Source: Knoellia locipacati | Lineage (GTDB): Bacteria; Actinomycetota; Actinomycetes; Actinomycetales; Dermatophilaceae | Reading direction: 5' to 3' | Assembly (NCBI RefSeq): GCF_007992835.1 | Contig: NZ_BKBA01000008.1 | Span: 248,001 to 312,000, forward strand | DNA length: 64,000 nt | Part shown: one piece after another, positions 1-64,000 of the stretch | Position numbering within the stretch: the stretch's first letter is position 1 | How the letters are laid out: every line of letters starts with the position of its first letter | Position numbers and translations under genes: made by a program | The notes under the pieces: generated by a model | Told to the model about the DNA's origin: nothing | Databases searched by the model: none | What the model saw: the letters and a program-made list of their open reading frames with translations, nothing else

Positions 1-1
1 C

Positions 2-1198
2 GTCATCCTCATCGCGGCGACCAACCGCCCCGACATCCTCGACCCGGCGCTGCTGCGCCCCGGCCGCTTCGACCGCCAGATCGCCGTCGAGGCCCCCGAC
101 ATGCTCGGCCGCCACCGCATCCTCGAGGTCCACTCGCAGGGCAAGCCGATGGCTCCCGGTGTCGACCTGCTCGCCGTCGCCCGACGCACCCCCGGCTTCA
201 CCGGTGCCGACCTCGCCAACGTCCTCAACGAGGCCGCGCTGCTCACGGCCCGCACCGACAAGACGCTCATCGACGACGCCACGCTCGACGAGGCCATCGA
301 CCGCGTCATCGCCGGCCCGCAGAAGAAGACGCGGATCATGTCGGCCAAGGAGCGCAAGATCACGGCCTACCACGAGGGTGGTCACGCCCTCGTCGCCGCG
401 GCGATGAACCACACCGACCCGGTCACCAAGGTGACGATCCTGCCCCGCGGTCGCGCACTCGGCTACACGATGGTCATGCCGATCGACGACAAGTACTCGA
501 CGACCCGCAACGAGATCCTCGACCAGCTCGCCTACGCGCTCGGTGGCCGCGTCGCGGAGGAGATCATCTTCCACGACCCGACGACCGGCGCCGCCAACGA
601 CATCGAGAAGGCCACCGCGATGGCCCGCAAGATGGTCACCGAGTACGGCATGAGCGAGCGCGTCGGCGCGATCAAGCTGGGCCAGAGCCAGGGCGAGGTC
701 TTCCTCGGCCGCGACATGGGCCACCAGCGCGACTACTCCGAGAAGATCGCCGGCATCGTCGACGAGGAGGTGCGCTCGCTCATCGAGGCCGCCCACGACG
801 AGGCGTGGCACGTCATCAACGACAACCGCCACATCCTCGACCGCATGGTCCTCGAGCTGCTCGAGCGCGAGACGCTCAACCAGAAGGAGATCGCCGAGGT
901 CTTCCAGGGCATCGTCAAGCGCCCGCTGCGCCCGACGTGGCTCTCGAGCGAGCACCGTGGCATCTCCGACCAGCCGCCCGTCCTCACCCCCGCCGAGCAG
1001 GTGGCCCTCAACGGCCACGGCCCGTCGGGCGAGCCCACCGGCGCACGCGTCAACGAGGGTGACCCGTCGACGTCGGCGGCGATCGACCGGGCCGCGACCG
1101 AGGGTGCCCACCCGGAGGCCGAGGCCGCCGGCGAGCACCCGCCCACCCAGGTGATCGAGGTCCCCGAGGGCCAGCGTGTCGACCCCGACGCCCACTGA
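2..1198 (+). CDS. ftsH: ATP-dependent zinc metalloprotease FtsH (C-terminal part)
   Basis: Membrane-anchored AAA+ protease that degrades misfolded membrane and short-lived proteins. The window opens inside the gene: frame 2 begins in the AAA second region of homology ([20 protein letters not shown]), including the arginine finger. The zinc site HEGGH lies at 371-385, and the later segment GGRVAEEI through [11 protein letters not shown] matches the M41 peptidase domain with its third metal ligand. A tail of about 90 residues after the protease domain (from about 940) is Pro/Glu/Ala rich and low in complexity, as in other actinobacterial FtsH. The N-terminal membrane segments and Walker A lie outside the window. 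folE follows after 13 nt, so the gene heads or belongs to the folate operon. Confidence 0.97.
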
Positions 1199-1211
1199 GG
1201 GAGGCCGGCCG

Positions 1212-1823
1212 GTGCCGGACACGAGCGACGAGACCGACACGCTGCCCCCGCGGCAGGTCGACCACGAGCGTGCCCGCGCGGCCGTGCGCGAGTTCCTCAT
1301 CGCCATCGGCGAGGACCCCGACCGCGAGGGCCTGCTCGACACTCCCGACCGCGTCGCGCGTGCCGCCACGCAGCTGTATGCCGGGCTGTCCCAGGACCCG
1401 GCGCAGGTCCTGTCCGCGCGGTTCTCGATCGACCACGAAGAGCTCATCATCGTGCGCGACATCGAGATCTTCTCGACCTGCGAGCACCACCTGCTGCCCT
1501 TCCACGGGGTCGCCCACGTCGGCTACATCCCGGCGACCGACGGCACCGTGACCGGGCTGTCCAAGCTCGCCCGTCTCGTCGACGTCTTCGCCCGCCGCCC
1601 CCAGGTGCAGGAGCGGATCACGACCCAGGTCGCGGACGCACTCGTCGAGAACCTCGGCGTCCAGGGCGTCATCGTCGTCATCGAGGCCGAGCACCTCTGC
1701 ATGTCGATGCGGGGCGTTCACAAGCCCGGCTCCCGCACGATCACCTCGGCCGTGCGCGGCCAACTGCGCGACCCCGCCACCCGGGCCGAGGCGATGTCGC
1801 TGCTGCTCGGCGGCAAGCGGTGA
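1212..1823 (+). CDS. folE: GTP cyclohydrolase I
   Basis: Converts GTP to 7,8-dihydroneopterin triphosphate, the first step of folate synthesis. The type IA signature is present: zinc and catalytic residues in [19 protein letters not shown], and the [12 protein letters not shown] segment carrying the second zinc Cys. I chose GTG 1212 because GAGGGAGG (1197-1204) sits 7 nt upstream. An in-frame GTG at 1176 would overlap ftsH by 23 nt and lacks a ribosome site. The chosen start gives 203 residues, normal for the family. The gene lies between ftsH and folP, a layout typical of actinobacterial ftsH-folate loci. Confidence 0.95.
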
Positions 1824-1833
1824 GCAGCGCCAC

Positions 1834-2700
1834 GTGATCCCGCTCGTCGCTGGTCCGCGACCCCTCGTCATGGGGGTCGTCAACGTCACTCCCGACTCGT
1901 TCAGCGACGGCGGCGAGTGGTTCGAGCCGGAGGCCGCGATCGCCCACGGGCGAGACCTGCTGGCCGCCGGGGCCGACCTCATCGACGTCGGTGGCGAGTC
2001 CACCCGCCCGGGTGCGACCCGGCCCTCGGTCGACGAGGAGCTGCGTCGCGTGGTCCCCGTCGTGCGCGCCCTGGCCGCCGAGGGCGCCGTGATCTCGATC
2101 GACACGATGCGTGCGGCTGTCGCCGCTGCCGCGGTCGAGGCCGGCGCCGAGATCATCAACGACGTGAGCGCAGGCCTCGCGGACGGCGAGATGGCATCGC
2201 TCGCCGCGCAGGCCGGCATACCCTTCATCGCCATGCACTGGCGCGGCCACAGCACCGAGATGCAGTCGCGCGCCGTCTACGACGATGTCGTGGCCGACGT
2301 CTGCCGAGAGCTGCGCGAGCGGGTGGCGGCGTTGCAGGAGAGCGGGATCGACTCCGCCAACATCATCCTCGACCCCGGGTTCGGGTTCGCCAAGACGGCC
2401 GAGCACAACTGGGCCCTGCTGCGCAGCCTCGACGAGGTCGTCGCCCTGGGGCACCCCGTCCTCGTCGGCACCTCGCGCAAGACCTTCCTCGGGCGTCTGG
2501 GGCGGGCCGCGGGCGAGGACCCGCGACCGCCGACCGAGCGCGACCTCTCGACCGCCGTCACGTCGTTCCACGCCGCGCGCCGGGGTGCGTGGGCGGTGCG
2601 CGTGCACGACGTCGGCTCGACGATCCAGGCCCTCGATGTGGCCGACGCGCTCAAGGACCCCGATGCGCTCAAGGACCCCGATGCGAAGGAGCGCTCGTGA
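1834..2700 (+). CDS. folP: dihydropteroate synthase
   Basis: Condenses dihydropterin pyrophosphate with p-aminobenzoate; the sulfonamide target. The TIM-barrel motifs are clear: MGVVNVTPDSFSDGG near the N-terminus, DVGGESTRPGA, DPGFGFAKT and GTSRK. It starts at GTG 10 nt after folE. The last 18 codons contain an exact 18-bp tandem duplication (2647-2664 and 2665-2682) encoding ALKDPD twice, beyond the conserved domain, so probably neutral. The stop overlaps the folB-folK start by 4 nt (GTGA), which indicates translational coupling. Confidence 0.95.
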   Translation: MIPLVAGPRPLVMGVVNVTPDSFSDGGEWFEPEAAIAHGRDLLAAGADLIDVGGESTRPGATRPSVDEELRRVVPVVRALAAEGAVISIDTMRAAVAAAAVEAGAEIINDVSAGLADGEMASLAAQAGIPFIAMHWRGHSTEMQSRAVYDDVVADVCRELRERVAALQESGIDSANIILDPGFGFAKTAEHNWALLRSLDEVVALGHPVLVGTSRKTFLGRLGRAAGEDPRPPTERDLSTAVTSFHAARRGAWAVRVHDVGSTIQALDVADALKDPDALKDPDAKERS

Positions 2701-3581: not shown

Positions 3582-4036
3582 GCAGCTCCGGCGTGCGCGC
3601 CCGCGTGGCCGTGCTCGTGACGCTCGTGGTGGGCCTCGCCTCGTGGCTGCTCTGGAAGCTCCTCACCGGTGGGGGCACGCTCGTGCCGCGCCCGTCGTGG
3701 CTCGCGGCGGTGCTGCTCGTCGGCATGGCGGCGTTCGTCGCCGGCTGGGCGTGGCCGGTCCGCTCCTACCTCGCCGGGCGCTCGACCCGTCGCCTCGACC
3801 CGTTGCGCGCGGCGCGCGTCGTCGTGCTCGCGCAGGCGGCGACCCTCACCGGCGCTGCTGCCGCCGGCTGGTATGCCGGCCAGCTGGCCGTCGTCGCCAG
3901 CGACCTCTCGCTCGTGGCCAACCAGGACCGCGTGTGGCGGCTCGCCGTGCTCGTCGGCGCCGGGTTCGTGCTCGCCGCCGCGGGGCTTCTCGCCCAGTCG
4001 TGGTGCCGGGTCGACCCCCGAGACGACGACGACTGA
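3578..4036 (+). CDS. DUF3180 family membrane protein
   Basis: A small integral membrane protein of about 152 residues with four predicted membrane segments: VAVLVTLVVGLASWLLW, WLAAVLLVGMAAFVAGW, VVLAQAATLTGAAAAGWY and LAVLVGAGFVLAAAGLL. It ends in an acidic tail (RDDDD). The family follows folK in many actinobacteria; its function is unknown. Two in-frame GTG codons are available (3575 and 3578). I prefer 3578 because GGAGG at 3566-3570 is then 7 nt away and the start forms GTGA with the folBK stop. The convergent gap after it holds a large palindromic repeat. Confidence 0.85.
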   Translation: MSSSGVRARVAVLVTLVVGLASWLLWKLLTGGGTLVPRPSWLAAVLLVGMAAFVAGWAWPVRSYLAGRSTRRLDPLRAARVVVLAQAATLTGAAAAGWYAGQLAVVASDLSLVANQDRVWRLAVLVGAGFVLAAAGLLAQSWCRVDPRDDDD

Positions 4037-4049
4037 CGTCACCCCCCTC

Positions 4050-4180: not shown

Positions 4181-5359
4181 CTACTTGTCGACGTCGCCGA
4201 CGACGAAGAACGTCGACCCGAGGATCGCCACCATGTCGGACACGAGGGTCCCGGGCAGCAGCTCGGTGAGCACCTGCACGTTGTTGAACGACGCCGAGCG
4301 CAGCTTGAGCCGCCACGGCGTCTTGTCGCCGCGTGAGACGAGGTAGTAGCCGTTGAACCCGAGCGGGTTCTCGGTCGCGACGTAGGTCTCGCCCTCGGGG
4401 ACCTTGAGCACCTTGGGCAGCCGCTGGTTCACGGGTCCGGAGGCCATCGACCCGAGCACGGACAGGCAGTGCTCGACGAGGTCGAGGCTCACGTGGACCT
4501 GCTCGAGCAGCACCTCGAGCCGGGCGAGGCAGTCGCCGGCCGTGCGGGTGACGACCCGACCGGGCCCGTCCTCGCCGAACAGCTCGGCATACGCGAGGTA
4601 GGGCGCGTCGCGGCGCAGGTCGACGTCGAGACCGGAGGCGCGCGCGATCGGACCGGAGACGCCGTACTGCTGCACGGTTGCCACGTCGAGGACCCCGACC
4701 CCGCGGGTGCGCGCCGTGAGGATCTCGTTGCCGACGAGCATCGACTCGAGGTCCGGCAGCCTGCGCCGCACCGCCTGCACGGCGTCGTCGACCCGGCCCA
4801 GCCAGCCGGCCGGCACGTCCTCCTTGAGGCCGCCGACGCGGTTGAACATGTAGTGCATCCGCCCGCCCGACGCCTCCTCCATCACCGCCTGGAGCTCCTC
4901 GCGCTCCCTGAAGGCGTAGAAGACGGGCGTGATCGCCCCGAGCTCGAGCGGGTAGGACCCGAGGAACATGAGGTGCGACAGGACGCGGTTGAGCTCGGCG
5001 AGCATCGTCCGCAGCCACACGGCACGCTCGGGCACCTCCATGCCGAGCATCTCCTCGACCGCGAGGACGACCCCGAGCTCGTTGCCGAACGCGCTGAGCC
5101 AGTCGTGGCGGTTGGCGAGGACGATGATCTGCCGGTAGTCGCGGACCTCGAAGAGCTTCTCCGCCCCGCGGTGCATGTAGCCGATGATCGGCTCGGCCCG
5201 CACGATCCGCTCGCCGTCGAGGGTGAGGCGAAGCCGGAGCACGCCGTGCGTCGCCGGGTGCTGGGGGCCGATGTTGAGCACCATGTCGGCCGTCGCCAGG
5301 CCGCCTGCGCCGACGGCGACCGTGGTCGTCTGCGCTGCGTCGGGCGTGGGCTCAGGCAT
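4181..5359 (-). CDS. NuoD-like (49-kDa) subunit, stand-alone paralogue
   Basis: Homologue of the NADH:quinone oxidoreductase subunit that forms the quinone pocket, 392 residues. Family landmarks: [15 protein letters not shown] (His38), [12 protein letters not shown] (Arg64), [39 protein letters not shown] and a C-terminal VDK. It lacks hydrogenase-type nickel Cys pairs. No other nuo genes flank it. It is the second gene of a two-gene operon after a MidA-type methyltransferase, with which it overlaps by 8 nt. The position matching the quinone-ligand Tyr (human Tyr108, Thermus Tyr87, aligned by spacing from the HRG Arg) is Trp87. Likely a specialised or accessory paralogue; the canonical nuoD is probably elsewhere. 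Confidence 0.88.
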
Positions 5360-6302
5360 GGCCCCGAGTATGCCGGGTCATCGCCCAGGAGAACCCGCCG
5401 AGCCCGTTCGGGTCGGTGAGCGCGGCGACCGTCGACGAGCGGCCGAGCGCCCGGACGTAGCCGAGCGGGTCGCTGCCGGCCAGCGCGTGCTCGGGCGTGG
5501 CGGCCCTGGTGCCGAGCCGGTGGAGCAGCTCGCGCTGCGTGAGGACCTCGTCGGCGCCGAGCGAGTCGGTGGCGACGTGCGCGGTGAGGTCACGCCGCCC
5601 GTCCGGGACCGTCTCGGTCACCTGTCCCTCTTGGTATGCCGTGAGCGTCCCGAAACTCGGCCGTCCCGTCCGCACGTGGCCGTAGTCCACCGCGACGGTG
5701 AGCCCGGAACGGTTGCGGGACAGCAGGTCCCGCCATGCCAGGTCACGGCTCAGGCCGACCTCGACGCGCTCCCCGGGGGTGGCGCTCGTCCACCACGCGT
5801 CGGCCCAGGCGCGGTCGTCGCCGGTGAGCGTGCCACCCAACGTCTCGGTCCCGGAGTCATCGACGAGCACCTCGCGCAGCTCGCCCTCGTCGTCGACCTC
5901 GGCCACCGTGCACGGCACGACGTCGAGCCACTCGTGCGCGAGGACGAGGGCGTCGAGGTCACGCAGCTCGTCGGGCAGCAGTGCGCCGCCGGGGGAGCGA
6001 AGCCACTCGACGGCGCCCGGCAGGTCGCCGGGGCGCTCGACGACGTCGACCCCGACGAGGTCGAGGTCGGGCCGCTGGTCGTGCAGGTGGTGCAGCAGCT
6101 CGCCGCGCCCGCACGCGAGGTCGACCACACGGCATACGCCCGCCTCGTCCGCGAGCCGGCCGACCGCCTCGGCGAGGACGGCACCCAGCCCGCCGTGCGC
6201 CGAGGTCGTGAAGTGCCCTGCCGGTCCCTCGTCGCGGCGGTAGAACCCGTCCGGGCCGTAGAGCGCGTCCCACCACGCGTCACGCCAGGGTCGAGGGTCC
6301 AC
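5352..6302 (-). CDS. MidA/NDUFAF7-family SAM-dependent protein methyltransferase
   Basis: A 316-residue class I methyltransferase of the MidA/NDUFAF7 type. Evidence in order: GHFTTSAH (30-36), the SAM loop [12 protein letters not shown] (59-70), [10 protein letters not shown] (121-130, like the family NEFFDALP), AVDYGH (204-209), and TLTAYQEG followed by RRDLTAHV (about 219-243, matching the family GTLR-DLTAHVDF block). In mitochondria NDUFAF7 dimethylates an Arg of the NuoD homologue NDUFS2, and here the gene is directly coupled to a NuoD-like gene. GTG 6302 has a -10 box (TAGGTT on the minus strand, 6309-6314) 6 nt away, so the transcript looks leaderless. Substrate assignment is inference. 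Confidence 0.82.
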
Positions 6303-6866: not shown

Positions 6867-6871
6867 GGGTC

Positions 6872-6883: not shown

Positions 6884-7780
6884 GTGAGTTCAGGCGAGCA
6901 CCCCGCGCGGTTGTCCATCGGGGTCATCGGGGCCGGCCGTGTCGGTGCCGTCCTGGGGGCCGCTCTCGCGCGTGCCGGCCACCGGATCCAGGCCGCGTAT
7001 GCCGTGAGCGCGGAGAGCCGTGAGCGTGCGGCCGCGCTCCTGCCGGGAGTGCCCCTCAAGGAGATCCCGGAGGTCATCGACGGCGCCGACCTCGTGCTCC
7101 TCGCCGTCCCCGACGACGCCCTCCCCGAACTCGTCGCCGGCCTGGCCGCCACCGACACGTGGCAGGCGGGGCAGATCGTCGTCCACACGAGCGGGCGCTA
7201 CGGCGCCGAGGTCCTGCGCCCTGCGATGGCGGCGCACATCCTTCCGGTGGCGATCCACCCGGCGATGACCTTCACCGGCACGGCCCTCGACCTCGGACGT
7301 CTCGAGGAGTGTGCGTTCGGCGTCACCGGGCCCGACGCGCTGCGGCCCATGGCCGAGGCCCTCGTCGTCGAGATGGGCGGCGAGCCCGTGTGGGTCCCCG
7401 AGTCGCAGCGGGCGGCCTACCACGCAGCCCTCGCCCACGGGTCGAACCACCTCGTCACCCTCGTCGCCGAGGCGATGGAGGTGCTCGCGGCCGCCGGTGT
7501 CGAGCAGCCCCGCAGCGTGCTCGGGCCGCTCGCCAGGGCGGCGCTCGACAACGCCCTGCGGCTGGGTGACGCAGCGCTCACCGGGCCGGTGGCTCGTGGT
7601 GATGTGAGTACCGTGGGTGCGCACCTGCGCGAGCTGGGCCGGATCTCGCCCGAGATCAGGACGACGTACGTCGCCCTGGCCCGCGCCACCGCGGTGCGCG
7701 CGCTCGAGAGCGGGCGGCTCCAGCCGTCGGCCGCCGAGCCCTTGCTCGACACCCTCGCCGACCAGGAGCCCACACCGTGA
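6884..7780 (+). CDS. Rossmann-fold/DUF2520 dehydrogenase-like protein
   Basis: A 298-residue protein with an N-terminal NAD(P)-binding domain (IGVIGAGRVGAVLG) and a C-terminal helical DUF2520 domain (YHAALAHGSNHLVTLVAEA). The architecture resembles ketopantoate reductase and ProC-type enzymes. It is the first gene of a run whose next member, panC, overlaps by 4 nt (GTGA), so a role in pantothenate synthesis, possibly as the ketopantoate reductase, is plausible. No panE or panB appears in the window. The family has no settled function that I know of; the pathway assignment is inferred from context. Confidence 0.8.
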   Translation: MSSGEHPARLSIGVIGAGRVGAVLGAALARAGHRIQAAYAVSAESRERAAALLPGVPLKEIPEVIDGADLVLLAVPDDALPELVAGLAATDTWQAGQIVVHTSGRYGAEVLRPAMAAHILPVAIHPAMTFTGTALDLGRLEECAFGVTGPDALRPMAEALVVEMGGEPVWVPESQRAAYHAALAHGSNHLVTLVAEAMEVLAAAGVEQPRSVLGPLARAALDNALRLGDAALTGPVARGDVSTVGAHLRELGRISPEIRTTYVALARATAVRALESGRLQPSAAEPLLDTLADQEPTP

Positions 7781-8736
7781 CCGACAGCGCCACCTCCACC
7801 GCGACGCCGGACTCCTCGACGGCGCCGGTCGTCGCGAGGACCCGCGACGAGATGCGGGCCGCCCGGGCGGCCCTCGCGGGCGCCGACGTGGCCGTCGTCA
7901 TGACGATGGGTGCCCTCCACGAGGGCCACGCTCAGCTGCTCCGCGAGGCCCGGCGCGCCGCCGAGCACGTCATCCTCACGATCTTCCTCAACCCCCTGCA
8001 GTTCGGGCCCAAGGAGGACCTCTCCCGCTACCCGCGCACCTTCGACGACGACATGCGGATCGCCACCGACGCCGGCGTCGACATCGTCTTCGCGCCGACC
8101 CCCGACGTCGTCTACCCCGACGGCGACCCCGGGGTGCGGGTGTCCGCCGGACCCCTCGGTGACGTCCTCGAGGGTGCGTCGCGACCGGGTCACTTCGACG
8201 GCATGCTCACCGTCGTCGGCAAGCTGCTCCACCTCACCGGGGCACGACGCGCCTTCTTCGGCCAGAAGGACGCCCAGCAGCTGCTCCTCATCCGCCGGAT
8301 GGTGCGCGACCTCGACTTCCCCGTCGACGTCGTCTCGGTCCCGACGGTGCGCGAGCCCGACGGCCTCGCCCTGAGCAGCCGCAACACCTACCTCACCGAC
8401 TCCGACCGCGAGGTCGCGCTGTGCCTGAGCCGCGCGCTCACCGCGGGAGCCGACCAGACGGCATACGGGCCCTCGGCCATCCGCCGTGCCGCCCGCGAGG
8501 TCCTCGTCGAGGAGCCGCTGGCCCTCGTCGACTACCTCGTGCTCGTGCACCCGAGCACCCTCCAGGACGTGCCCGAGTGGTACCGCGGGGAGGCGCTGCT
8601 CGCGGTCGCCGCCCGGGTCGGGACGACGCGGCTCATCGACAACACCCCGATCCTCGTCGGCCCGGGCGGTGGGAGACTCGACGTCTTCTCGCAGCCCGAG
8701 TCCGGCAGCATCCCCGCCCGCCCGGCCGCCGGCTGA
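7777..8736 (+). CDS. panC: pantothenate synthetase
   Basis: Joins pantoate and beta-alanine with ATP hydrolysis. Signatures: [19 protein letters not shown] (HIGH-type ATP site), [35 protein letters not shown] and [11 protein letters not shown] (KMSKS-like loop). At 319 residues it is slightly longer than usual because of an N-terminal Ser/Thr-rich leader of about 20 residues. GTG 7777 overlaps the upstream stop. panD, which makes the beta-alanine substrate, follows after 29 nt. Confidence 0.95.
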
Positions 8737-9191: not shown

Positions 9192-10888
9192 CCGCTCCCG
9201 ACGCGCGGATCCCTCGGGCGCTGGCCGCGCCCGCACCGGGCTGGACGACCTCGGCCGACGTCATCGTCGTCGGCTCGGGGATCGCCGGGCTCACCTGCGC
9301 CCTGCGGCTGCGCGAGCAGGTCGACCGCGTCCTGCTCGTCACCAAGACGGTGCTCGACGAGGGTTCCACGGCCTGGGCGCAGGGCGGGATCGCCGCGGCG
9401 CTCCACCCCGAGGACTCACCCGAGGAGCACCTCGAGGACACCCTCGTCGCCGGTGTCGGGCTCTGTGACCGCGACGCCGTCGAGGCCCTCGTCACCGAGG
9501 GCCCGAAGCGGGTGCGCGAGCTCGTCGCCCTGGGCGCGGAGTTCGACCGCGACGCCGAGGGCGAGATCAAGCTGACCCGCGAGGGTGGTCACCACCGCGA
9601 CCGCATCGCCCACGCCGGTGGCGACGCGACGGGACGCGAGATCTCACGGGCCCTCATCGCAGCCCTCCACCGCGTCATCGACGACCCGGGCATCGAGGTG
9701 GTCGAGCACGCCCTCGTCGTCGACCTCCTCCAGGCGGGATCCGACGACGGCGAGGTCGTCGGGGTGACGCTGCACGTCATCGGCGAGGGCCAGCTCGACG
9801 GCGTGGGGGCGGCCTACGCGCGGGCGGTGGTGCTCGCGACCGGCGGGCTCGGCCAGATCTACACGTCGACGACGAACCCCCCGGTGGCGACCGGCGACGG
9901 CATGGCCGCGGCGCTGCGTGCCGGCGCCCGGATCACCGACCTCGAGTTCATCCAGTTCCACCCGACGGTGCTCTTCCTCGGGGAGGGGTCGACGGGCCAG
10001 CAGCCGCTCATCTCGGAGGCCGTGCGCGGCGAGGGCGCGTTCCTCGTCGACGGCGCCGGGCGCCGCATCATGGAGGGGCGGCACGAGCTCGCCGACCTCG
10101 CGCCGCGCGACGTCGTGGCCCGGGCGATCCTCGAGACGATGCGCGAGCAGGGCACCGACCACGTGTTCCTCGACGCCCGCCACCTCGGCGGTGCCTTCCT
10201 CGAGGAGCGATTCCCCTCGATCGTCGCGTCCTGCCGCTCGCTGGGCTTCGACCCGGCGACCGACCTGCTGCCCGTGGCGCCAGCCCAGCACTACGCCTCG
10301 GGTGGCATCGAGACCGACCTGCGCGGGCGCACCTCGCTGCCCGGGCTCTATGCCTGTGGTGAGTGCTCGTGCACCGGCGTCCACGGCGCCAACCGGCTCG
10401 CCTCCAACAGCCTGCTCGAAGGGCTCGTCTTCGCCAGCCGGATCGCCGCCGACATCCCCGAGCGGATCGCGGCGGGGGAGCTGCCCGAGGTCGTGGTGCC
10501 CGCGACGCCGGCGCACGCCGGTGGCGAGGGCTCCGGCCCGGGTGCCCTCCTCGACAGCACGCAGCGGCTCACGGTGCAGCGGGCGATGACGGCGGGGTCG
10601 GGTCCGGTCCGCTCGGCGAACTCCACGGCGGCGACCGCCGGGACGCTCGCGGACCTCGCCGCGCTCCCGCCCTCGACGGCCGCCCCGGGGCCGCGCACCT
10701 GGGAGACGACCAACCTCCTCCACCTCGGGCAGGTGCTCACCGAGCTGGCCCACCGACGCGCCGAGACCCGTGGTGGGCACGTGCGTCGCGACTTCCCCGA
10801 GCGTGACGACGCCCGCTGGCTCGTGCGCCAGAGCGTCGTCGTCTCACCCGACCGCACCCTCACCGTGACCGAACGGAGTATGCCGTGA
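9188..10888 (+). CDS. nadB: L-aspartate oxidase
   Basis: FAD enzyme oxidising aspartate to iminoaspartate for quinolinate synthesis. The dinucleotide motif [17 protein letters not shown] is near the N-terminus. [33 protein letters not shown] and [20 protein letters not shown] are family blocks of the succinate dehydrogenase/NadB superfamily, and [19 protein letters not shown] is present. 566 residues. nadA is not adjacent, so quinolinate synthase must be encoded elsewhere. GTG 9188 overlaps the panD stop and its own stop overlaps nadC. The last four codons before the stop contain a GTATGCCG octamer. Confidence 0.95.
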
Positions 10889-16814: not shown

Positions 16815-16893
16815 GCGGGCAGGTCGGGTGCGGGTCCCACGCTGCCTGCGGGCCGGCATACCGGCTGGGTTCTGGACCGGCCACGGGAGCAGT

Positions 16894-22593: not shown

Positions 22594-22755
22594 TGCGTTC
22601 GGACCCGGTATGCCGTCCGCCCGCCGACCGCCGTCGGCGCGCCTTCGCCGCCGGTGGCCACGGTGACCGGACTCTCGCGAACAACAGTGCCGTCGTGCGG
22701 TGACGACGAAGTAGGGTCGGGACCGACGGTGTCGACACGAGGAGAGGCGGGACCC

Positions 22756-25337: not shown

Positions 25338-25351
25338 GCAAGGACCCTCGT

Positions 25352-46383: not shown

Positions 46384-47901
<1,518 letters not shown>

Positions 47902-48292: not shown

Positions 48293-48333
48293 GACGGCCT
48301 CCGTCGCGTATGCCGTCCGCCCACGTCCGGACA

Positions 48334-51904: not shown

Positions 51905-51915
51905 AGCGTATGCCG
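51905..51915 (-). promoter_or_regulatory. -10 box of leaderless mtr, overlapping a GTATGCCG octamer
   Basis: Minus-strand TACGCT (51905-51910) is 6 nt from ATG 51898. Its first bases belong to the octamer at 51908-51915, so the octamer also forms part of a promoter. Confidence 0.5.
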
Positions 51916-54735: not shown

Positions 54736-55913
54736 GCGACCTCGACGTCACCGGGGGCGTCGGCGGGATCGAGGTCGCGATCGAGGACCTCCGCCGCGCC
54801 GCGTCGCGGCTGCGCCGGGCCGCCGACGTCGTCGAGGGTGCGGTGCCCGAGCGCTGGCGTGCGCCCTCGTGGGACCTGCTGACCGCAGCGCCCGACCTCG
54901 CGCACCTCGTCGTCCGGGCCCGGCTGGCGTCGACCGCGGCCGCAGATGCGGTCGGCCACAGCGTGCAGCGGCTGCGGGCCCTCGCCGTCTCGACCGACCG
55001 CGCGGCAACGGCATACGAACGGGCCGAGGCGACGACCCGTGGGCTCCTGGCCGGGCTGCACGACCAGGCCATGTCGATCGCGTGGTTGGTGTCGGCGGTC
55101 ACCGGCAGGGCGTTCGGCCTGCTCGACGAGGGGAAGGGGTGGGACGTCACGCTGACCCCGGTGCCAGCGCCCGACTGCGTTCCGTCGCCCACGTCCGCCG
55201 ACTCGATGCTGGCCGGTGTCGAGACCCTCGGCGACCGCGACAGCACCGGCGGTGTGCGCGTCGTCGAACTCGCCGCCACCGACGGCACCACCACGTGGGT
55301 CGTGCAGGTGCCGGGCACGCACGGCGGCTGGGCGGAGGGCGGCCGCGTCCCGATGGACTGGCCGGCCAACGTCTCGCTCATGCTCAGTGCCACGAGCGCC
55401 TCCAAGGTCGCGGCCACGCGGGCGCTCGACCTCGCCCAGGCCGGCCGGGCGGGGCCACACGACCGGGTCGTCCTCGTCGGCCACAGCCAGGGCGGCATCG
55501 TCGCGGCCGCCCTCGCCTCCGACCCCGCGTTCACGCGCACCCACCGGGTGAGCCACGTCCTCACCGCGGGCTCGCCCATCGACGACTTCCCGATCCCCGA
55601 CTCGACGCAGGTCCTCTCGCTCCAGCACGGGACCGACCCGGTGCACGCGCTCGACGCCTCGCCACCGCCCGACCGGCGGAGCTGGACGACGGTCGAGGCG
55701 CCGGCCCCGGTCGACGTCCGCACCCACCTCACCGCGGGGGCCCACGCCCTCTCCGCCTACCGCGCGACGGCCTCGAAGGTCGACCGGTCCGGCGACGTCT
55801 CGCTGCGCCGGTGGCGGGCGGGGATCGCCCCTGCCCTCACGCTCGCCCCGGGCGCCGAGCCTGTGGTGCATGAGTTCCGCTCGGAGCGGCGGTGGCAGAA
55901 TCGCGACTCGTGA
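54732..55913 (+). CDS. alpha/beta hydrolase with N-terminal helical (WXG-like) domain
   Basis: 393 residues. Residues 1 to about 125 are helical (IEDLRRAASRLRRAADVVEG, the W-rich ERWRAPSWDLL, and long Ala/Arg helices). Residues 150-390 are an alpha/beta hydrolase: TWVVQVPGTHGGWAEG, nucleophile Ser in VVLVGHSQGGIVAAALA, ITAGSP-like (VLTAGSPIDDFPIP), LQHGTDPVHALDA (Asp) and LTAGAHALSAY (His). It lacks a signal peptide. The gene is coupled to the small helical protein gene upstream. Lipase or esterase activity is inferred. Confidence 0.8.
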   Translation: MSDLDVTGGVGGIEVAIEDLRRAASRLRRAADVVEGAVPERWRAPSWDLLTAAPDLAHLVVRARLASTAAADAVGHSVQRLRALAVSTDRAATAYERAEATTRGLLAGLHDQAMSIAWLVSAVTGRAFGLLDEGKGWDVTLTPVPAPDCVPSPTSADSMLAGVETLGDRDSTGGVRVVELAATDGTTTWVVQVPGTHGGWAEGGRVPMDWPANVSLMLSATSASKVAATRALDLAQAGRAGPHDRVVLVGHSQGGIVAAALASDPAFTRTHRVSHVLTAGSPIDDFPIPDSTQVLSLQHGTDPVHALDASPPPDRRSWTTVEAPAPVDVRTHLTAGAHALSAYRATASKVDRSGDVSLRRWRAGIAPALTLAPGAEPVVHEFRSERRWQNRDS

Positions 55914-56368: not shown

Positions 56369-58089
56369 TGAACCCCTCCACCGCGCTCGCTCGCGTGCTC
56401 GTCGACGAGCTCATTCGCGGTGGGGTGCGTGACGTCGTCCTCGCCCCCGGTTCGCGCTCCGCGCCCCTCGCGTATGCCGTCCAGCAGGCCGAGCGCGACG
56501 GCCGACTCCGGCTGCACGTCCGGGTGGACGAGCGCACGGCAGGATTCCTCGCGCTGGGTCTCGCGAAGGGCTCCGGCGCACCGGTTCCCGTCATCACGAC
56601 ATCGGGCACGGCCGTCGCGAACCTCCATCCCGCGGTGCTCGAGGCACACCACACCGGCATCCCGCTCGTGGTGCTCTCGGCCGACCGCCCGGCAGAGCTG
56701 CGTGGAACCGGCGCCAACCAGACGACGGTCCAACCCGGCATGTTCGGCCCGGCGGTGCGGTGGTCCGCGGACCTCCCCGCGCCGGAGGCGGTCGGGTCCG
56801 TGGGTGCCTTCCACCGCAGTTCCGTATGCCGTGCCCTCGCCGCCGCCCTCGGCGCGCCGGGCAGCGGCGTCCCCGCGTCCTCCCGTGGTCCGGTCCACCT
56901 CAACGTCTCCTTCCGTGACCCCCTCACCCCCGCCGCCCCAGATCGCGATCAGTCGGAGGTCCATGCGGGGCGGGCCGACGGCCGGCCGTGGGTCGAGGTG
57001 CCCCAGGACGCCCACCTCGCCGGGCACGGCGGCATCCCAGACGTGCCACGCACGCTCGTCGTCCTCGGTGACCTCACGCCGTCCCCGGTGAGCTCGCAAC
57101 AGGTCCTCCGGTGGGCGGCGGGTCGTTCGTACCCCGTCATCGCCGAACCCTTCGGCGACCACGCCCGGGACGGCGTCGTGCCGCACGGCCCGCTCGTCCT
57201 CACCGACGCCGACTGGCTCGCCGAGCACCTGCCGGAGCGGGTGCTCGTCGTCGGGCGCATCACCCTCTCGCGCGCCGTGGCCGGTCTCCTTCGCAACCCG
57301 GCCGTGCGCGTCGAGGTGCTCAGCGGTCAGCCCCAGTGGTCGGACCCCGGTCACGTCGCCCACGCGGTCCATCCTCTGGTGCACCTTGCCGGCGACGCCG
57401 AGGTCGAGGGCGACGCAGCCTGGGCGGCGGCGTGGGCTGACGCGGGCTCGGCCGTCGCGAAGGCGGTCTCGGTCTCCCCACCGCAGTGGGGCACCGGACT
57501 GGCGGTCGGCGAGCTCCTCGGCGAGGTGCTGCCCGAGGACGCCCGGCTCTTCATCGGCTCGTCGAACCCGGTCCGCGACCTCGACCTCGGACTCGCGCCC
57601 CGGCGCGCCCCGCTCACGGTCGTCGGCAACCGCGGTCTCGCTGGCATTGACGGCTGCCTCTCGACCGCCATCGGGCTCGCCCTGACGACCGAGGCACCCA
57701 GCTATGCCTGGGTCGGCGACCTCACCTTCCTCCACGACTCCAACGCGCTCGCCCTCGGTCCCGACGAGCCCCGTCCGGACCTCACGGTCCTCGTCACCAA
57801 CGACGACGGCGGTGGCATCTTCCGCACCCTCGAGCACGGCGCACCCGAGCGGGCCGACGACTTCGGCCGCATCTTCGGCACCCCGACGGGGACCGACTTC
57901 GGGGCACTGTGCCGGGCACACGGCATACGCCATGTCCTTGCCGAGTCCCGCGACGCGGCAGCCGAGGCGCTGCGCGCGACTCCCGAAGGGATCACCGTCG
58001 TCGAGGTGCCGGTCGACGCCGAGTCGCACCGTGGGGCGCACGAGCGTCTGCGGCAGGTCGCGCGCGGGGCCCTGGCGATTTCGGCCTGA
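56368..58089 (+). CDS. menD: SEPHCHC synthase (MenD)
   Basis: Thiamine-diphosphate enzyme adding succinic semialdehyde (from 2-oxoglutarate) to isochorismate. 573 residues: VLAPGSRSAPLAYAVQQAER, the early Glu in LHVRVDERTAGFLALGLAKG, VITTSGTAVANLHPAVLEA, VVLSADRPAELRGTGANQT, and the ThDP-binding GDLTFLHDSNAL. TGATG coupling with the DUF3817 gene. The next gene is a menJ-like reductase 25 nt away with its own promoter-like box. Confidence 0.95.
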   Translation: MNPSTALARVLVDELIRGGVRDVVLAPGSRSAPLAYAVQQAERDGRLRLHVRVDERTAGFLALGLAKGSGAPVPVITTSGTAVANLHPAVLEAHHTGIPLVVLSADRPAELRGTGANQTTVQPGMFGPAVRWSADLPAPEAVGSVGAFHRSSVCRALAAALGAPGSGVPASSRGPVHLNVSFRDPLTPAAPDRDQSEVHAGRADGRPWVEVPQDAHLAGHGGIPDVPRTLVVLGDLTPSPVSSQQVLRWAAGRSYPVIAEPFGDHARDGVVPHGPLVLTDADWLAEHLPERVLVVGRITLSRAVAGLLRNPAVRVEVLSGQPQWSDPGHVAHAVHPLVHLAGDAEVEGDAAWAAAWADAGSAVAKAVSVSPPQWGTGLAVGELLGEVLPEDARLFIGSSNPVRDLDLGLAPRRAPLTVVGNRGLAGIDGCLSTAIGLALTTEAPSYAWVGDLTFLHDSNALALGPDEPRPDLTVLVTNDDGGGIFRTLEHGAPERADDFGRIFGTPTGTDFGALCRAHGIRHVLAESRDAAAEALRATPEGITVVEVPVDAESHRGAHERLRQVARGALAISA

Positions 58090-58114: not shown

Positions 58115-59344
58115 GTGACCACCCCCCAGCGCACGGACGTCCTCGTCGTCGGAGCCGGCCCAGCCGGCTCCGCTGCAGCGGCCTGGGCGGCGCGTGACGG
58201 CCGAGATGTCGTCCTCGCCGACGCCGCCGTCTTCCCCCGTGACAAGACCTGTGGCGACGGGCTCACCCCGCGGGCCATCGGTGAGCTCGAACGCCTGGGC
58301 CTGCGCGACTGGGTCCGTGCCCACACCGTGAACAAGGGCCTGCGCGCACACGGCTTCGGCCAGACACTCGAGCTCGAGTGGCCCGGCGGGACACTGCCCG
58401 ACTACGGCTCTGCCGTGGCCCGCACGGAGCTCGACGACCACCTCCGGACCACCGCGCTCAAGTCCGGCGCGCTCGGGGTCGAGGGGGCCAAGGCGGTCGA
58501 CGCGCGCATCGAGGGCGGGCGCGTGCGCGGTGTGACGTTCCAGCGCGACGGCGAGACCTTCGAGATCGAGTGCGAGCGGCTCATCGTCGCCGACGGCGTG
58601 CGCTCGCCGCTCGGCAAGGTGCTCGGTCGTGAGTGGCACAAGGACACCGTGTATGCCGTGGCCGGCCGGTGCTACGTCGACTCCGGGATGTCCGACGACC
58701 CGTGGATCAGCAGCCACCTCGAGCTGCGTGGTGAGCAGGGCGAGATCCTCTCGGGCTACGGCTGGATCTTCCCGCTCGGCGACGGCTCCGTGAACGTCGG
58801 TGCGGGCACGCTCGCCACGACGAAGCGCCCGGCCGAGGTGGCGATCAAGCCGCTCATGGCCCACTACGTCGAGCAGCGCCGGACCGACTTCCAGCTCAGC
58901 GGCGAGGCTCGGATGCCCACGAGCGCGCTCCTGCCCATGGGCGGCGCGGTGAGCAACATCGCCGGGCCCAACTGGGCGCTCATCGGCGACGCCGCCGCGT
59001 GCGTCAACCCGCTCAACGGCGAGGGCATCGACTACGGGCTCGAGGGTGGTCGCCTGGTCGTCGACGTGCTCGACACCGATCTCTCGGTGACGTGGCCGGC
59101 GACGCTCCAGGAGCACTACGGCGAGTCGTTCTCCATCGCCCGCCGCCTGGCCGGTGTCGTCACCGTGCCGCGGGTGCTCCCCGCACTCGGCCCGGCCGGG
59201 ATGCGCTCGGACTGGCTCATGACCCTCGCGCTCCGCTGGATGGGCAACCTCGTCACCGACGAGGACGCCGACCGCGCCGCCCGTGTGTGGCGCTGGGCCG
59301 GTCGCCGGTCGATCGCGCTCGACCACCGCCCGCCCTTCACCTGA
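58115..59344 (+). CDS. geranylgeranyl reductase family flavoprotein (MenJ-like)
   Basis: 409 residues. FAD loop VLVVGAGPAGSAAAAWAAR, the family motif FPRDKTCGDGLTPRAIGELE, YGWIFPLGDGSVNVGAGTL and LIGDAAACVNPLNGEGIDYG. The closest described relative is M. tuberculosis MenJ (Rv0561c), which saturates one isoprene unit of menaquinone. GTG 58115 follows GAGAAT (58103-58108) by 6 nt. A second, more divergent member starts at 62.85 kb. Confidence 0.9.
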   Translation: MTTPQRTDVLVVGAGPAGSAAAAWAARDGRDVVLADAAVFPRDKTCGDGLTPRAIGELERLGLRDWVRAHTVNKGLRAHGFGQTLELEWPGGTLPDYGSAVARTELDDHLRTTALKSGALGVEGAKAVDARIEGGRVRGVTFQRDGETFEIECERLIVADGVRSPLGKVLGREWHKDTVYAVAGRCYVDSGMSDDPWISSHLELRGEQGEILSGYGWIFPLGDGSVNVGAGTLATTKRPAEVAIKPLMAHYVEQRRTDFQLSGEARMPTSALLPMGGAVSNIAGPNWALIGDAAACVNPLNGEGIDYGLEGGRLVVDVLDTDLSVTWPATLQEHYGESFSIARRLAGVVTVPRVLPALGPAGMRSDWLMTLALRWMGNLVTDEDADRAARVWRWAGRRSIALDHRPPFT

Positions 59345-60676: not shown

Positions 60677-61978
60677 TCAGGGGCGGGTGGCGGTGAGGGC
60701 GTCGCGCATCGGGATGAGCTTGGCGTCCGACTCGGCCACCTCGGCCTCGGGCACCGAACCGGCGACGATGCCGCAGCCGGCATAGAGCGACATGCGCTGC
60801 GGGTCCTCGGCCGAGATCGCGCCCGACCGCAGGGCGATGCCCCACTCGCCGTCGCCGCTCGTGTCCATCCAGCCCACCGGCCCGGCGTAGCGACCGCGGT
60901 CCATGTGCTCGAGCTCGGAGATCAACGCGTCCGCCACCGGGGTCGGGGTGCCGCACACCGCCGCGCTCGGGTGGAGCGACGCGGCCAGCGCCAGCGACGA
61001 GGTCGCGTCGGTGAGGACGCCTGCCACGTCGGTCGCCAGGTGCATGACGTTGGACAGGTGCAGGACGAACGGCGCCTCGGGGACGTTCATCGAGGAGCAG
61101 TGCGGCGCAAGGGCATCGGCGACCGAGCGCACGGCGTACTCGTGCTCCTCGAGGTCCTTCGACGACCGCGCCAGGGAGGCAGCCAGGGCCAGGTCGTGGT
61201 CGTCGTCGCCGGTGCGCCGGATGGTGCCGGCGAGCACGCGCGAGGTGACGAGGCCCTTCTCGCGGCGCACGAGCATCTCGGGCGTCGCGCCGACCAGGCC
61301 GTCGACGGCGAACACCCACGTCGACTCGTAGCTCTCGGCCAGCCGTGACAGCAGCCACCGCACGTCGACCGGCGCGGCGGTGCGCACGTCGAGGTCGCGC
61401 GCGAGCACGACCTTGTCGAGGTCGCCGCGCTGGATCCGCGTGACCGCCTCGGCCACGGCTCCGGCCCACTCGGCCGGCGAGAGGGAGCCGTCGGCGAAGG
61501 CCACCTCGCCGGGCGCCTCGACGTCGTCGTGGACGACCGGGTCCACCGTCGGGGGCAGCGCGTCGGGGGTGGTCGTCGTCGTGACCCACCACTGGTCGCC
61601 GCGCCGGCCGATGACGACCGAGGGTACGACGAGCGTTGCGCCGGAAGGGGAGTCGGCGGCATACGAGATGGCGCCGAAGGCGACGGGTCCAGTGCCGGGC
61701 AGGTCGACCTCGTCGCGCACGACCGCGGAGGCCGCGACCGACTGCCACCACGACTCGAGCAGCGCGAACCGCGACTCACCGTGCGCCGTCACCGACGCCG
61801 CGCGGCCCCAGCCGACGAGGCCCTCGCCGCGACGCACCCAGGAGGTGGTGTCGTGGGGGCTCGTCGCGGGCAGGAGCGACAGCAGTGCCGTGCCGTCCGC
61901 GGGGGACAGGGCAACGGTGCGCGTGACCAGCGGCGCGAGGGGTGCAGTGTCCGGGTGGGACGTGGGCAGGGACGTCAT
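60677..61978 (-). CDS. menF: isochorismate synthase
   Basis: Chorismate-utilising enzyme, 433 residues. The C-terminal catalytic half has KVVLARDLDVRT, VFAVDGLVGATPEMLVRREK, RVLAGTIRRTGDD, HPSAAVCGTPTPVADALI and a final YAGCGIVAGSVPEAEVAESD with metal-binding Glu residues. No TrpE-type feedback site or glutaminase is associated, and the men context favours MenF over a siderophore role. A minus-strand TACGCT (61987-61992) is 8 nt from ATG 61978, or 5 nt from GTG 61981. Confidence 0.92.
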   Translation of the reverse strand: MTSLPTSHPDTAPLAPLVTRTVALSPADGTALLSLLPATSPHDTTSWVRRGEGLVGWGRAASVTAHGESRFALLESWWQSVAASAVVRDEVDLPGTGPVAFGAISYAADSPSGATLVVPSVVIGRRGDQWWVTTTTTPDALPPTVDPVVHDDVEAPGEVAFADGSLSPAEWAGAVAEAVTRIQRGDLDKVVLARDLDVRTAAPVDVRWLLSRLAESYESTWVFAVDGLVGATPEMLVRREKGLVTSRVLAGTIRRTGDDDHDLALAASLARSSKDLEEHEYAVRSVADALAPHCSSMNVPEAPFVLHLSNVMHLATDVAGVLTDATSSLALAASLHPSAAVCGTPTPVADALISELEHMDRGRYAGPVGWMDTSGDGEWGIALRSGAISAEDPQRMSLYAGCGIVAGSVPEAEVAESDAKLIPMRDALTATRP

Positions 61979-62052
61979 CACCGGGAAGCGTAGCCCCGCC
62001 CCCACCGGAGTCCCGCACTGGAGCAGTCGCCGCGCGGTGAGAGGATGACGCC

Positions 62053-62748
62053 ATGAGCCGCGCCTCCCTCGACAAGCAACCGCGCGACGTCGCCGCGATG
62101 TTCGACGACGTCGCCGAGAGGTACGACGTCACCAACGACGTGCTGTCCCTCGGCCAGGACCGCCTGTGGCGGCGTGCCGTCCTCAAGGCCGTCGACGCCA
62201 AGCCGGGGGAGCGGGTCCTCGACATCGCCGCCGGCACGGGCACGTCGAGCGAGCCGTTCGCCGACACGGGCGTCCACGTCGTCCCCGCCGACTTCTCGCT
62301 CGGCATGCTCCGCGTGGGCAAGGAGCGCCGCGACGACCTCGGCTTCACCGCCGCCGACGCGATGCGCCTGCCGTTCGCCGACGCGAGCTTCGACGCCGTG
62401 ACGATGTCGTTCGGCCTGCGCAACGTCGCCGACATCGACGCCGCCCTGCGCGAGTTCGCGCGGGTGAGCAAGCCGGGTGGGCGCCTCGTCGTCTGCGAGT
62501 TCAGCCAGCCGGTCAACGGCGCCTTCCGCAAGGTCTACAGCGAGTACCTCATGGAGGCGCTCCCGCGCGTGGCCCGCAAGGTGAGCTCCAACCCCGAGTC
62601 CTACGTCTACCTCGCCGAGTCGATCCAGGCGTGGCCGGACCAGCGCGCGCTCGCGACCCGGGTCGCCGCGGCCGGCTGGGGGAGCGTCGAGTGGCGCAAC
62701 CTCAGCGGTGGGATCGTCGCCCTGCACCGCGCCGTCAAGTCCGCCTGA
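62053..62748 (+). CDS. menG: demethylmenaquinone methyltransferase
   Basis: Final methylation of menaquinone (UbiE/MenG family), 231 residues. [23 protein letters not shown] loop [36 protein letters not shown] and [23 protein letters not shown] 62053 follows GAGGAT by 6 nt and is divergent from menF, so the two men genes share a 74-nt promoter region. Confidence 0.95.
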
Positions 62749-62781
62749 GCGCCCCGAGAGGTCAACTTAGGGTCGCCTGAG

Positions 62782-62838
62782 TGAACCGCCCGGAATCGCC
62801 TGCATAGAGTGGTCCGAAGTTCGTGAAGGCTTTCACAA
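62782..62838 (+). promoter_or_regulatory. promoter with Rex operator before GGR-type flavoprotein (and downstream operon)
   Basis: TGAACC (62782-62787), 17 nt, TAGAGT (62805-62810) form a promoter. TCGTGAAGGCTTTCACAA (62821-62838) matches the Rex operator consensus TTGTGAA-N4-TTCACAA with one mismatch and lies just downstream of the expected +1. Rex bound here would block transcription into the gene at 62.85 kb and whatever follows it. Confidence 0.78.
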
Positions 62839-62845
62839 GCAAGGT

Positions 62846-64000
62846 GTGTCGTTGAGTTTCGTGCCAGATGCCGCAGGCGTCGTCGTCATCGGAGCCGGCC
62901 CGGCCGGTTCCGCTGCTGCGGCACACCTGAGCGCAGCCGGGTGCGACGTCCTCGTCCTCGAGCGCACGCCCGACGCCTCCGACCGGACCGGCGCCGCGGC
63001 GCTCACGCCCGCAGCCGTCCGCGAGCTCGAGGTCCTCGGCCTCGGTGAGGCCGACACCGCCGGCTGGCACCGCACCACCGGCGTCCGCTTCGTCGGCGGC
63101 GGCATGCGCCTCGCGCTCGCCTGGCCCGACGCCTCCGGCCGTCCGGCCCACGGCCTCGTCACCTCACGTTCCGTCCTCGACGAGACCCTCGTGTCGTATG
63201 CCGTCCGCTCCGGTGCGCGCGTCGTGCGCGGCACGGAGGTCACCGGGCTCACGCGCGACGCCGCCGGCCGCGTCGACGGCGTCGCCACCTCCGGCGGCGC
63301 CGTCCGCGCCGACCTCGTCATCGACGCCTCCGGCGCCACGTCCGTCTCTCACGAGGGCACGACGTCGCGTGGCGCCGTCGCCGTCACCGCCGACTTCGAG
63401 AGCCCCCGCCACACCGACGACCACGTCGAGTCGTGGCTGCGGCTGTCCGCCGGCGACGGCGCGCAGCTGCCCGGGCACGGCTGGATCGTCGGCCGCGGCG
63501 ACGGACACGTCAGCGTCGGTGTCGGCGCCCTCGCCGACGACACGACCGCGACCCCCGACGCCTGCGCCGGAGTCCTCCGCCAGTGGCTCACCGCGTTGCC
63601 CGCGAACTGGCAGCTCACCGAGTCGACGATGACCGGCCCCGTCTCCGGCGCCCGCCTCTCCACCGGCCGCCCCGCCTCGCCCCGATACGCCGACGGTGTC
63701 CTCGCCGTCGGTGACGCCGCGGCCGTCGCCAACCCGGTCACCGGCGAGGGCCTCGCCGCCGCCCTGACCTCCGCGCGCCTCGCCGCCGTCACCGTCGCCC
63801 GTGCCCTCGGGCACCCGGGTGAGGAGCAGCGCGAGGCCGAGCTCACGGCATACGACGCGGTGCTCGCCCGTGCGCTGGGAGGCCACCGGACCCTCGGACG
63901 CGCCGTCGCGCGACTCGCCGACCGCCCGCTCGTCACCCGGCTCGCGACGACGTGGGCCCTGCCGCACGAGCCGCTGATGTCGTTCGTCCTCACCCGCGCC
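62846..64000 (+). CDS. geranylgeranyl reductase-like FAD-dependent oxidoreductase (3-prime end missing)
   Basis: Open to the window edge, at least 380 residues. FAD loop VVVIGAGPAGSAAAAHLSAA, VLVLERTPDA, GWIVGRGDGHVSVGVGALAD and LAVGDAAAVANPVTGEGLAA. It is a diverged paralogue of the 58115 gene and lacks the full FPRDKxCGDG motif (here DRTGAAALTPAAVRELE). The start is unresolved among GTG 62846, TTG 62852 (AAGG 7 nt upstream) and GTG 62861. In actinobacteria this gene often stands immediately before nuoA-N, which would explain the Rex operator; that lies outside the window. Confidence 0.82.
   Translation, partial: MSLSFVPDAAGVVVIGAGPAGSAAAAHLSAAGCDVLVLERTPDASDRTGAAALTPAAVRELEVLGLGEADTAGWHRTTGVRFVGGGMRLALAWPDASGRPAHGLVTSRSVLDETLVSYAVRSGARVVRGTEVTGLTRDAAGRVDGVATSGGAVRADLVIDASGATSVSHEGTTSRGAVAVTADFESPRHTDDHVESWLRLSAGDGAQLPGHGWIVGRGDGHVSVGVGALADDTTATPDACAGVLRQWLTALPANWQLTESTMTGPVSGARLSTGRPASPRYADGVLAVGDAAAVANPVTGEGLAAALTSARLAAVTVARALGHPGEEQREAELTAYDAVLARALGGHRTLGRAVARLADRPLVTRLATTWALPHEPLMSFVLTRA

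Follow-up and report, generated by a model that had tools for sequence, protein, structure and literature searches.

The question raised by this stretch of the genome of the soil bacterium Knoellia locipacati is why one octamer, GTATGCCG, recurs in it so often. The stretch (contig NZ_BKBA01000008.1, positions 248,001 to 312,000 of the forward strand; assembly GCF_007992835.1) is the window to whose 64,000 nt our positions refer; together with further stretches of the same genome it makes up a 464-kb sample. On most of the tests applied to the sequence, GTATGCCG behaved like a DNA uptake sequence (DUS), a tag by which certain Gram-negative bacteria tell their own DNA apart on uptake; this is a likeness and not a demonstration. 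We consider it moderately likely that the word is an uptake-sequence-like tag of self DNA with dialects, probably serving natural transformation.

Our recount of GTATGCCG in the window gave 56 exact copies, of which 27 are forward and 29 reverse, precisely as given in the preliminary description of this DNA. Dinucleotide shuffles of the window (n = 100) contained a mean of 0.64 and a maximum of 4 copies, and the Markov expectations were 1.2 (order 2) and 2.4 (order 3). The enrichment reaches well beyond the window: the complete assembly of 19 contigs (3.59 Mb) contained 2,535 copies (1,266 + 1,269) versus 99 (49 + 50) of a control word consisting of the GTATGCCG letters reversed. The 464-kb sample contained 352 copies with a mean spacing of 1.30 kb, about 0.7–0.8 per kb.

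Genes were called by codon-position G+C, and the calls are approximate. The placement in coding regions and gene gaps, described earlier, was confirmed, with 49 window copies within called genes and 7 outside. In the 464-kb sample, the density was 0.70 per kb within called genes versus 1.22 per kb outside; copies occupy six coding phases and also lie outside genes, and sense and antisense copies were nearly equal in number (153 vs. 132). Codon usage, considered earlier as a possible full explanation, was checked by shuffling synonymous codons within each gene (464 kb, 30 runs): a mean of 24.2 and a maximum of 32 copies were obtained, versus 291 real genic copies. Chance and codon usage were rejected on the basis of the dinucleotide shuffles, the Markov expectations, and this synonymous shuffling. 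Rare codons are concentrated in the word: 109 of 210 TAT and 42 of 64 ATA codons of the sample fall within it. A Markov check of order 5–6 had also been proposed; the maximal-order model, predicting the 8-mer from its own 7-mers, did not place GTATGCCG among its top words, but this test is circular because GTATGCC hardly ever occurs here outside the motif.

The copies in the window are listed below.

1376..1383, forward, exact match
2214..2221, reverse, exact match
3871..3878, forward, exact match
4585..4592, reverse, exact match
5368..5375, forward, exact match
5634..5641, forward, exact match
6130..6137, reverse, exact match
6997..7004, forward, exact match
8459..8466, reverse, exact match
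10878..10885, forward, exact match
11465..11472, reverse, exact match
13414..13421, forward, exact match
13845..13852, reverse, exact match
16673..16680, forward, exact match, outside called genes
16854..16861, reverse, exact match, outside called genes
18562..18569, reverse, exact match
18951..18958, forward, exact match, outside called genes
20740..20747, reverse, exact match
22608..22615, forward, exact match, outside called genes
24245..24252, reverse, exact match
25350..25357, forward, exact match
26116..26123, reverse, exact match
30053..30060, reverse, exact match
31007..31014, forward, exact match, outside called genes
33505..33512, forward, exact match
33873..33880, reverse, exact match
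34757..34764, forward, exact match
35895..35902, reverse, exact match
37787..37794, forward, exact match
38557..38564, reverse, exact match
39203..39210, reverse, exact match
40428..40435, forward, exact match
41388..41395, reverse, exact match
43643..43650, forward, exact match
43755..43762, reverse, exact match
44784..44791, reverse, exact match
47702..47709, reverse, exact match
48308..48315, forward, exact match, outside called genes
48403..48410, forward, exact match
48985..48992, reverse, exact match
49868..49875, reverse, exact match, outside called genes
50714..50721, forward, exact match
51562..51569, reverse, exact match
51908..51915, forward, exact match
53289..53296, reverse, exact match
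53925..53932, reverse, exact match, close opposite pair with 53975
53975..53982, forward, exact match, close opposite pair with 53925
54069..54076, forward, exact match
55009..55016, reverse, exact match
56472..56479, forward, exact match
56824..56831, forward, exact match
57921..57928, reverse, exact match
58651..58658, forward, exact match
61657..61664, reverse, exact match
63196..63203, forward, exact match
63846..63853, reverse, exact match

Both orientations were balanced in the three Knoellia stretches of the 464-kb sample (115:123, 22:28, and 30:34), and the same held for four other genera, counted over 100-kb stretches (46:46, 31:41, 47:51, and 54:50). Neighbouring copies tended to be opposite: 43 of 55 pairs in the window and 244 of 349 in the 464 kb (p 7e-14). 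When pairs closer than 60 bp were left out, 227 of 331 were opposite, whereas a null model keeping the genes and the sense fraction gave 165.5 and a maximum of 190 in 2,000 runs. Spacing in the 464 kb was also more even than random (Kolmogorov–Smirnov (KS) p 3e-4). The orientations alternate because same-orientation copies avoid each other: same versus opposite pairs numbered 13 vs. 44 at 60–400 bp, 15 vs. 58 at 400–800 bp, and 62 vs. 113 at 800–1500 bp, values reached by none of 1,000 label permutations, and 140 vs. 133 at 1.5–2.5 kb. This avoidance in Knoellia was present both within and across genes. Opposite copies were not depleted there and were in excess under 50 bp; among the 352 sites, 17 of the 18 pairs closer than 60 bp were opposite, and 9 of the 18 were intergenic by these gene calls, several of them forming long hairpins beside gene ends. 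In the four other genera pooled, the avoidance was of shorter range (same/opposite 40/76 at 60–400 bp, 54/86 at 400–800 bp, and 140/139 at 800–1500 bp); it was clear in genomes G141 (5 vs. 20 and 9 vs. 17) and G116 (8 vs. 20 and 16 vs. 27, counted with the 7-mer GTATGCC).

The same-orientation spacing in Knoellia suggests that the word may be recognised on each strand separately. With one-strand reading, a second copy on the same strand is superfluous within about a fragment length, while a copy on the other strand does not replace it; from this pattern we infer a Knoellia reader acting on one strand at a time. Such avoidance is not described for uptake sequences in those portions of the literature that were covered. 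Directional uptake to one side of the motif was considered and rejected: it predicts depletion of one opposite arrangement, and only a mild converging preference was found (73 vs. 43 pairs at 60–400 bp).

The word is also conserved. The window was compared with seven other Knoellia genomes; 132 of 392 comparisons were unalignable, and sites and genomes are non-independent. GTATGCCG sites were identical in 211 of the 260 alignable comparisons, control 8-mers of the same composition in 7,543 of 19,697 (38%), and control 8-mers with TA in 872 of 1,738 (50%). TAT was kept as TAT in 58 of 65 aligned cases within the motif versus 27 of 55 outside, and ATA was kept in 48 of 53 versus 4 of 6; GCA before TAC was kept in 48 of 71 cases within the motif, with zero outside cases for comparison. 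Where sites were lost, the change was often to the synonymous codon that is preferred (GTAGGCCG, GTACGCCG).

We surveyed 186 genomes from 53 genera of the family Intrasporangiaceae, which we take to be the Dermatophilaceae of GTDB, counting both strands together and regarding genomes with at least 300 copies as rich. A total of 110 genomes were rich in GTATGCCG, and 76 had fewer copies; the lowest of the rich ones were G028, G181, and G034 with 322, 341, and 361 copies (controls 70, 97, and 42, respectively). The nine genomes of the genus Knoellia itself had 1,971 to 3,277 copies. Elsewhere in the order, 229 genomes from 19 other families were counted, and none exceeded 177 copies (control 135). 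Among named genomes, in a collection that may omit the record of the present one, the nearest LexA protein was that of Knoellia flava TL1 (96% identity). Named loci of 15–21 kb contained 12 to 19 copies in Knoellia flava, Pedococcus, Phycicoccus, Humibacillus, and one metagenome-assembled genome, and zero in Janibacter limosus and Kytococcus aerolatus; the remaining 73 named loci pooled (1.34 Mb) contained 23. The motif is patchily distributed between and within genera (G008, G113, and G083).

Where GTATGCCG is absent, variants of the octamer emerged from motif searches that covered stretches of 41 genomes, and three of these words were borne out by whole-genome counts. Counts are given below as both strands/reversed control, and the threshold was at least 700 copies and at least 4x control; the reversed controls are imperfect, since GGATGCCG and GTACGCCG usually exceed them 1.5- to 4-fold in genomes without the dialect. 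The variant words GGATGCCG and GTACG[CG]CG were found in 18 of the 76 motif-poor genomes, in 14 at no less than 6x control and in 4 weakly (G004, G019, G153, and G158; 4.3 to 5.1x). GGATGCCG was abundant in G034 (4,480/262), G178 (3,949/289), G018 (3,838/439), G017 (3,816/392), and G035 (3,619/206). GTACGCCG was abundant in G088 (4,185/207), G089 (3,903/310), G003 (2,618/161), G013 (2,529/243), G002 (2,366/155), G015 (2,216/143), and G087 (2,111/148); G083, G014, and G012 had fewer copies. GTACGGCG reached 3,117/294 in G083 and occurred alongside GTACGCCG in G013, G015, G087, G012, G003, and G002. Two words coexist in genomes G036 and G037, GGATGCCG (2,195 and 2,099) and GTATGCCG (1,217 and 1,189), and G143 and G146 look intermediate, with 625 and 836 copies of GTATGCCG and 865/227 and 1,011/284 of GTACGCCG, respectively. 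Minor variants—GTATGCC[GC], GTATG[CG]CG, and GTATG[CA]CG—were seen in stretches only. By genus grouping (no tree), the dialects follow lineage, mostly with one word per genus and with switches in genus groups g15, g32, and g5; within-genus switches separate G083 from G084/G085 and G034/G035 from G036/G037.

Further repeats were observed in other genomes. CGAAGGGGG, possibly a further dialect and possibly a repeat of an unrelated kind, was over-represented in stretches of G056 and G064 and in locus L157 (Janibacter limosus), with 40 copies in 120 kb versus 2.8 expected; some copies lie in hairpins, and the orientations do not alternate (21 of 44). Stretches of G184 (L084-L086, L108, and L135), a genome below the threshold for every counted dialect, contained repeated AGTAGGTG/CACCTACT and GAGCGTTA.

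To our knowledge, uptake sequences are known only from Neisseriaceae and Pasteurellaceae. No uptake sequence in Actinobacteria was among the matches listed in our searches of the open-access literature; the letters of GTATGCCG occurred, among the matches listed, mainly in what appear to be primer or sequencing-adapter papers, and the word and some genus names were not found in the text of PMC2843746. According to excerpts of PMC3630211, neisserial DUS form eight dialects with 943 to 5,918 copies per genome, Simonsiella muelleri carries two dialects in nearly equal numbers, and five Neisseriaceae genomes have no obvious DUS; the kingDUS of K. oralis shows a one-mismatch gain of only 21%. Excerpts of PMC2397512 give a meningococcal DUS spacing of about 1.15 to 1.5 kb, inverted close pairs acting as terminators, and high conservation. 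GTATGCCG resembles DUS in its hundreds to thousands of copies, spacing of about 1–1.5 kb, inverted close pairs, high conservation, dialects a few bases apart, two-dialect genomes, and family members without any word. It differs in being actinobacterial, in its core of 8 bp instead of 10–12, and in its orientation-specific spacing over about 1.5 kb; the DUS receptor is the minor pilin ComP. AT-DUS has the letters ATGCCGT in common with it, perhaps by chance (PMC12061091, excerpt). The 17 inverted close pairs among 352 sites also recall the uptake signal sequence (USS) of Pasteurellaceae. The likeness to DUS proposed in the preliminary description has held on most of the features examined: the word is genome-wide, present in both orientations, genic and denser outside genes, found in inverted pairs, conserved, and split into dialects. 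The likeness to the cyanobacterial octamer HIP1 (highly iterated palindrome 1), proposed alongside it, has not, since GTATGCCG is not its own reverse complement.

Enrichment, balance, spacing, hairpins, conservation, and dialects are seen in the sequences themselves. If they reflect an uptake-sequence-like tag, GTATGCCG would have spread and been kept in the Knoellia genome through preferred import or recombination of DNA bearing it. The process would be natural transformation: the Knoellia genome contains comEC and comEA near lexA, the ComEA protein having SLBB and HHH_3 domains, as well as a Tad-type operon. This operon encodes a T2SSE ATPase and a small Tad-domain protein, and its other members are putative Tad genes, labelled by position. 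The reader would be a fast-evolving extracellular part, e.g., a Tad minor pilin. Reading would involve a single strand, and an incoming fragment of about 1 to 1.5 kb would then need a copy of the word on each of its two strands. In another actinobacterium, Micrococcus luteus, Flp pili are needed for natural transformation (PMC6370729, excerpt).

The competence machinery itself does not discriminate between genomes with and without the motif. comEC was found in 180 of the 186 family genomes, motif or none, the six misses being genomes 58–95% complete, and its presence was accordingly ruled out as the deciding factor; comEA, too, occurs in relatives without the motif, and T2SSE was found in 22 of 22 genomes searched. 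The varying part must therefore be a specificity factor, and our guess, by analogy with ComP and with ComN/PpdA, the predicted USS receptor (PMC12616744, excerpt), is a fast-evolving minor pilin. ComEA as the reader of dialects was rejected, as no dialect signature was visible by eye among 42 aligned sequences. In the dialect-switch pairs G034/G036 and G083/G085, several genes of the Tad operon diverge more than their neighbours, with no single standout, and two small open reading frames of G164 resembling the small Tad-domain protein matched no Pfam family. Some comEC matches were split in two or three pieces (e.g., G101, G125, G134, G145, and G159), with two matches in further genomes; these are possibly broken genes or assembly errors. 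A full-length T2SSE match (G085:C2:219881-221974, E 7e-135), which we read as PilB/GspE-like, lies beside a second T2SSE; the other listed matches cover less of the model.

Several results weigh against an uptake-sequence-like tag. We know of no competence in Knoellia; comEC, present with or without the motif, does not predict it; and neither the ComEA alignment nor the Tad operon comparison yielded a dialect-linked reader protein. In 58 of the 186 family genomes, none of the four words (GTATGCCG, GGATGCCG, GTACGCCG, and GTACGGCG) reached the thresholds. The same-orientation avoidance was weak in G102 (16 vs. 20 and 15 vs. 20) and G164 (11 vs. 12 and 9 vs. 16) and not evident in small samples of other dialects, G083 and G089. 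One-mismatch forms of GTATGCCG numbered 252 versus 264 (order 2) or 193 (order 3) expected with the motif masked, i.e., almost no excess. The record NC_009053, which we take to be Actinobacillus pleuropneumoniae, provides the contrast: its USS-type word has a large excess, with 947 one-mismatch forms versus 86 expected (PMC1939737, excerpt). As regards the strand-wise spacing, a double-strand receptor would not yield it, and ComP prefers double-stranded DNA, although a single-stranded Crick-strand DUS has some transforming ability in N. gonorrhoeae (PMC12061091, excerpt). Strand-by-strand reading would point instead to recognition of single-stranded DNA, e.g., during or after ComEC transport, and not to a ComP-type double-strand pilus receptor.

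A bolder form of the proposal is, in our view, possible but doubtful: that Intrasporangiaceae own an independently evolved, dialect-bearing uptake-sequence system, the first outside Gram-negative bacteria, read strand by strand at least in Knoellia, with each orientation a separate signal reaching about 1–1.5 kb. If true, this third, actinobacterial case would bring an independent origin, with dialect-switched sister species, to the debate between molecular drive and selection for same-species DNA, and would allow predictions of natural transformability among environmental actinobacteria and of whose DNA each can use. The orientation-specific spacing offers quantitative information on the mode of reading.

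The same spacing would also fit a Chi-like signal, an explanation that we regard as unlikely, in which the motif is read one-way on a single strand by a helicase-nuclease that processes DNA ends (not RecBCD; perhaps AdnAB) and then switches to recombination; with such a one-directional reader, each direction needs its own copies. Like Chi (GCTGGTGG), GTATGCCG is a non-palindromic octamer plausibly read on one strand, and little mismatch halo surrounds it. PDDEXK_1 genes, often in neighbouring pairs resembling AdnAB by our own reading, occur in the family, but they were found in 22 of 22 genomes searched, motif or none, and therefore do not discriminate, neither supporting nor excluding AdnAB. 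Unlike Chi, GTATGCCG is unskewed, and its same-orientation copies repel each other in Knoellia: in E. coli K-12, Chi was skewed 27:10, 3:19, and 5:18 in three 150-kb stretches, and its same-orientation pairs at 60–1500 bp were not depleted (21 vs. 14.8 expected; 82 Chi, a small control). Inverted close pairs and a higher density outside genes would be unexpected for such a signal. The RecC model matched none of 9 Knoellia genomes; in the family as a whole it matched 48 of the 110 genomes rich in the motif and 41 of the 76 poor in it. RecBCD-Chi was rejected on the strength of this distribution, and the E. coli control lowers its likelihood further. RecC is patchy in the family (89/186), even within genera; in genus group g4 it is confined to G008, which is also the only g4 genome without the motif.

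Distinctly improbable, in our estimate, is a chromosome-organising or other intracellular DNA-binding site, for a nucleoid protein, segregation, or replication. The even spacing (KS p 3e-4) and strong conservation would suit it, but not the patchiness between and within genera (G008, G113, and G083) or the occurrence in six coding phases plus outside genes. The balanced orientation in the counted stretches is contrary to FtsK-orienting polar sequences (KOPS) and to primase and replication-bound signals; KOPS and architecture imparting sequences (AIMS), for which a strand bias along the replichores is expected, as well as replication or transcription signals, do not fit this balance (stretches totalling 464 kb in Knoellia). 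We assign a very low probability to a restriction-modification or methylation mark, in which the word would be protected or methylated. Genomes usually avoid restriction sites instead of enriching them; GTATGCCG is not palindromic, and such a mark offers no obvious cause for orientation-specific spacing. The model for it is HIP1 (GCGATCGC), likewise an octamer over-represented across a group and heavily repeated, with a function maybe tied to orphan methyltransferases (PMC4390886, excerpt); HIP1 is palindromic, while GTATGCCG is directional and has dialects. That composition, codon-pair usage, or mutation bias produces the excess is scarcely credible: apart from the circular maximal-order test, nothing in its favour survived the controls, synonymous shuffling leaves 24 copies versus 291, the density is higher and not lower outside genes, and the rare codons used by the word are conserved.

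At locus L148 (9993-16330; G000:C14, about 20.0-26.3 kb), a T2SSE frame ends after 184 amino acids beside a stretch of lower G+C content whose genes, for SMODS (cGAS/DncV-like nucleotidyltransferase, CD-NTase), SLATT_4, and AbiTii, resemble those of a defence island. An uptake sequence would be expected to be rare in recently acquired DNA; the 5.7-kb island after this frame contained no GTATGCCG, with about 4 expected, in a sample of one small island.

The window also contains a second repeat, ACTGATTGCCC(C), arranged in tight inverted groups at 4053-4135, 15091-15234, and 31404-31475. ACTGATTG was found in 11 copies in the window versus 0.03 expected. In the 464 kb, ACTGATTGCCC numbered 20 copies, of which 16 lay outside called genes, and stretches of seven other Knoellia genomes yielded just 2; it looks like an element of the repetitive extragenic palindromic (REP)/terminator type.

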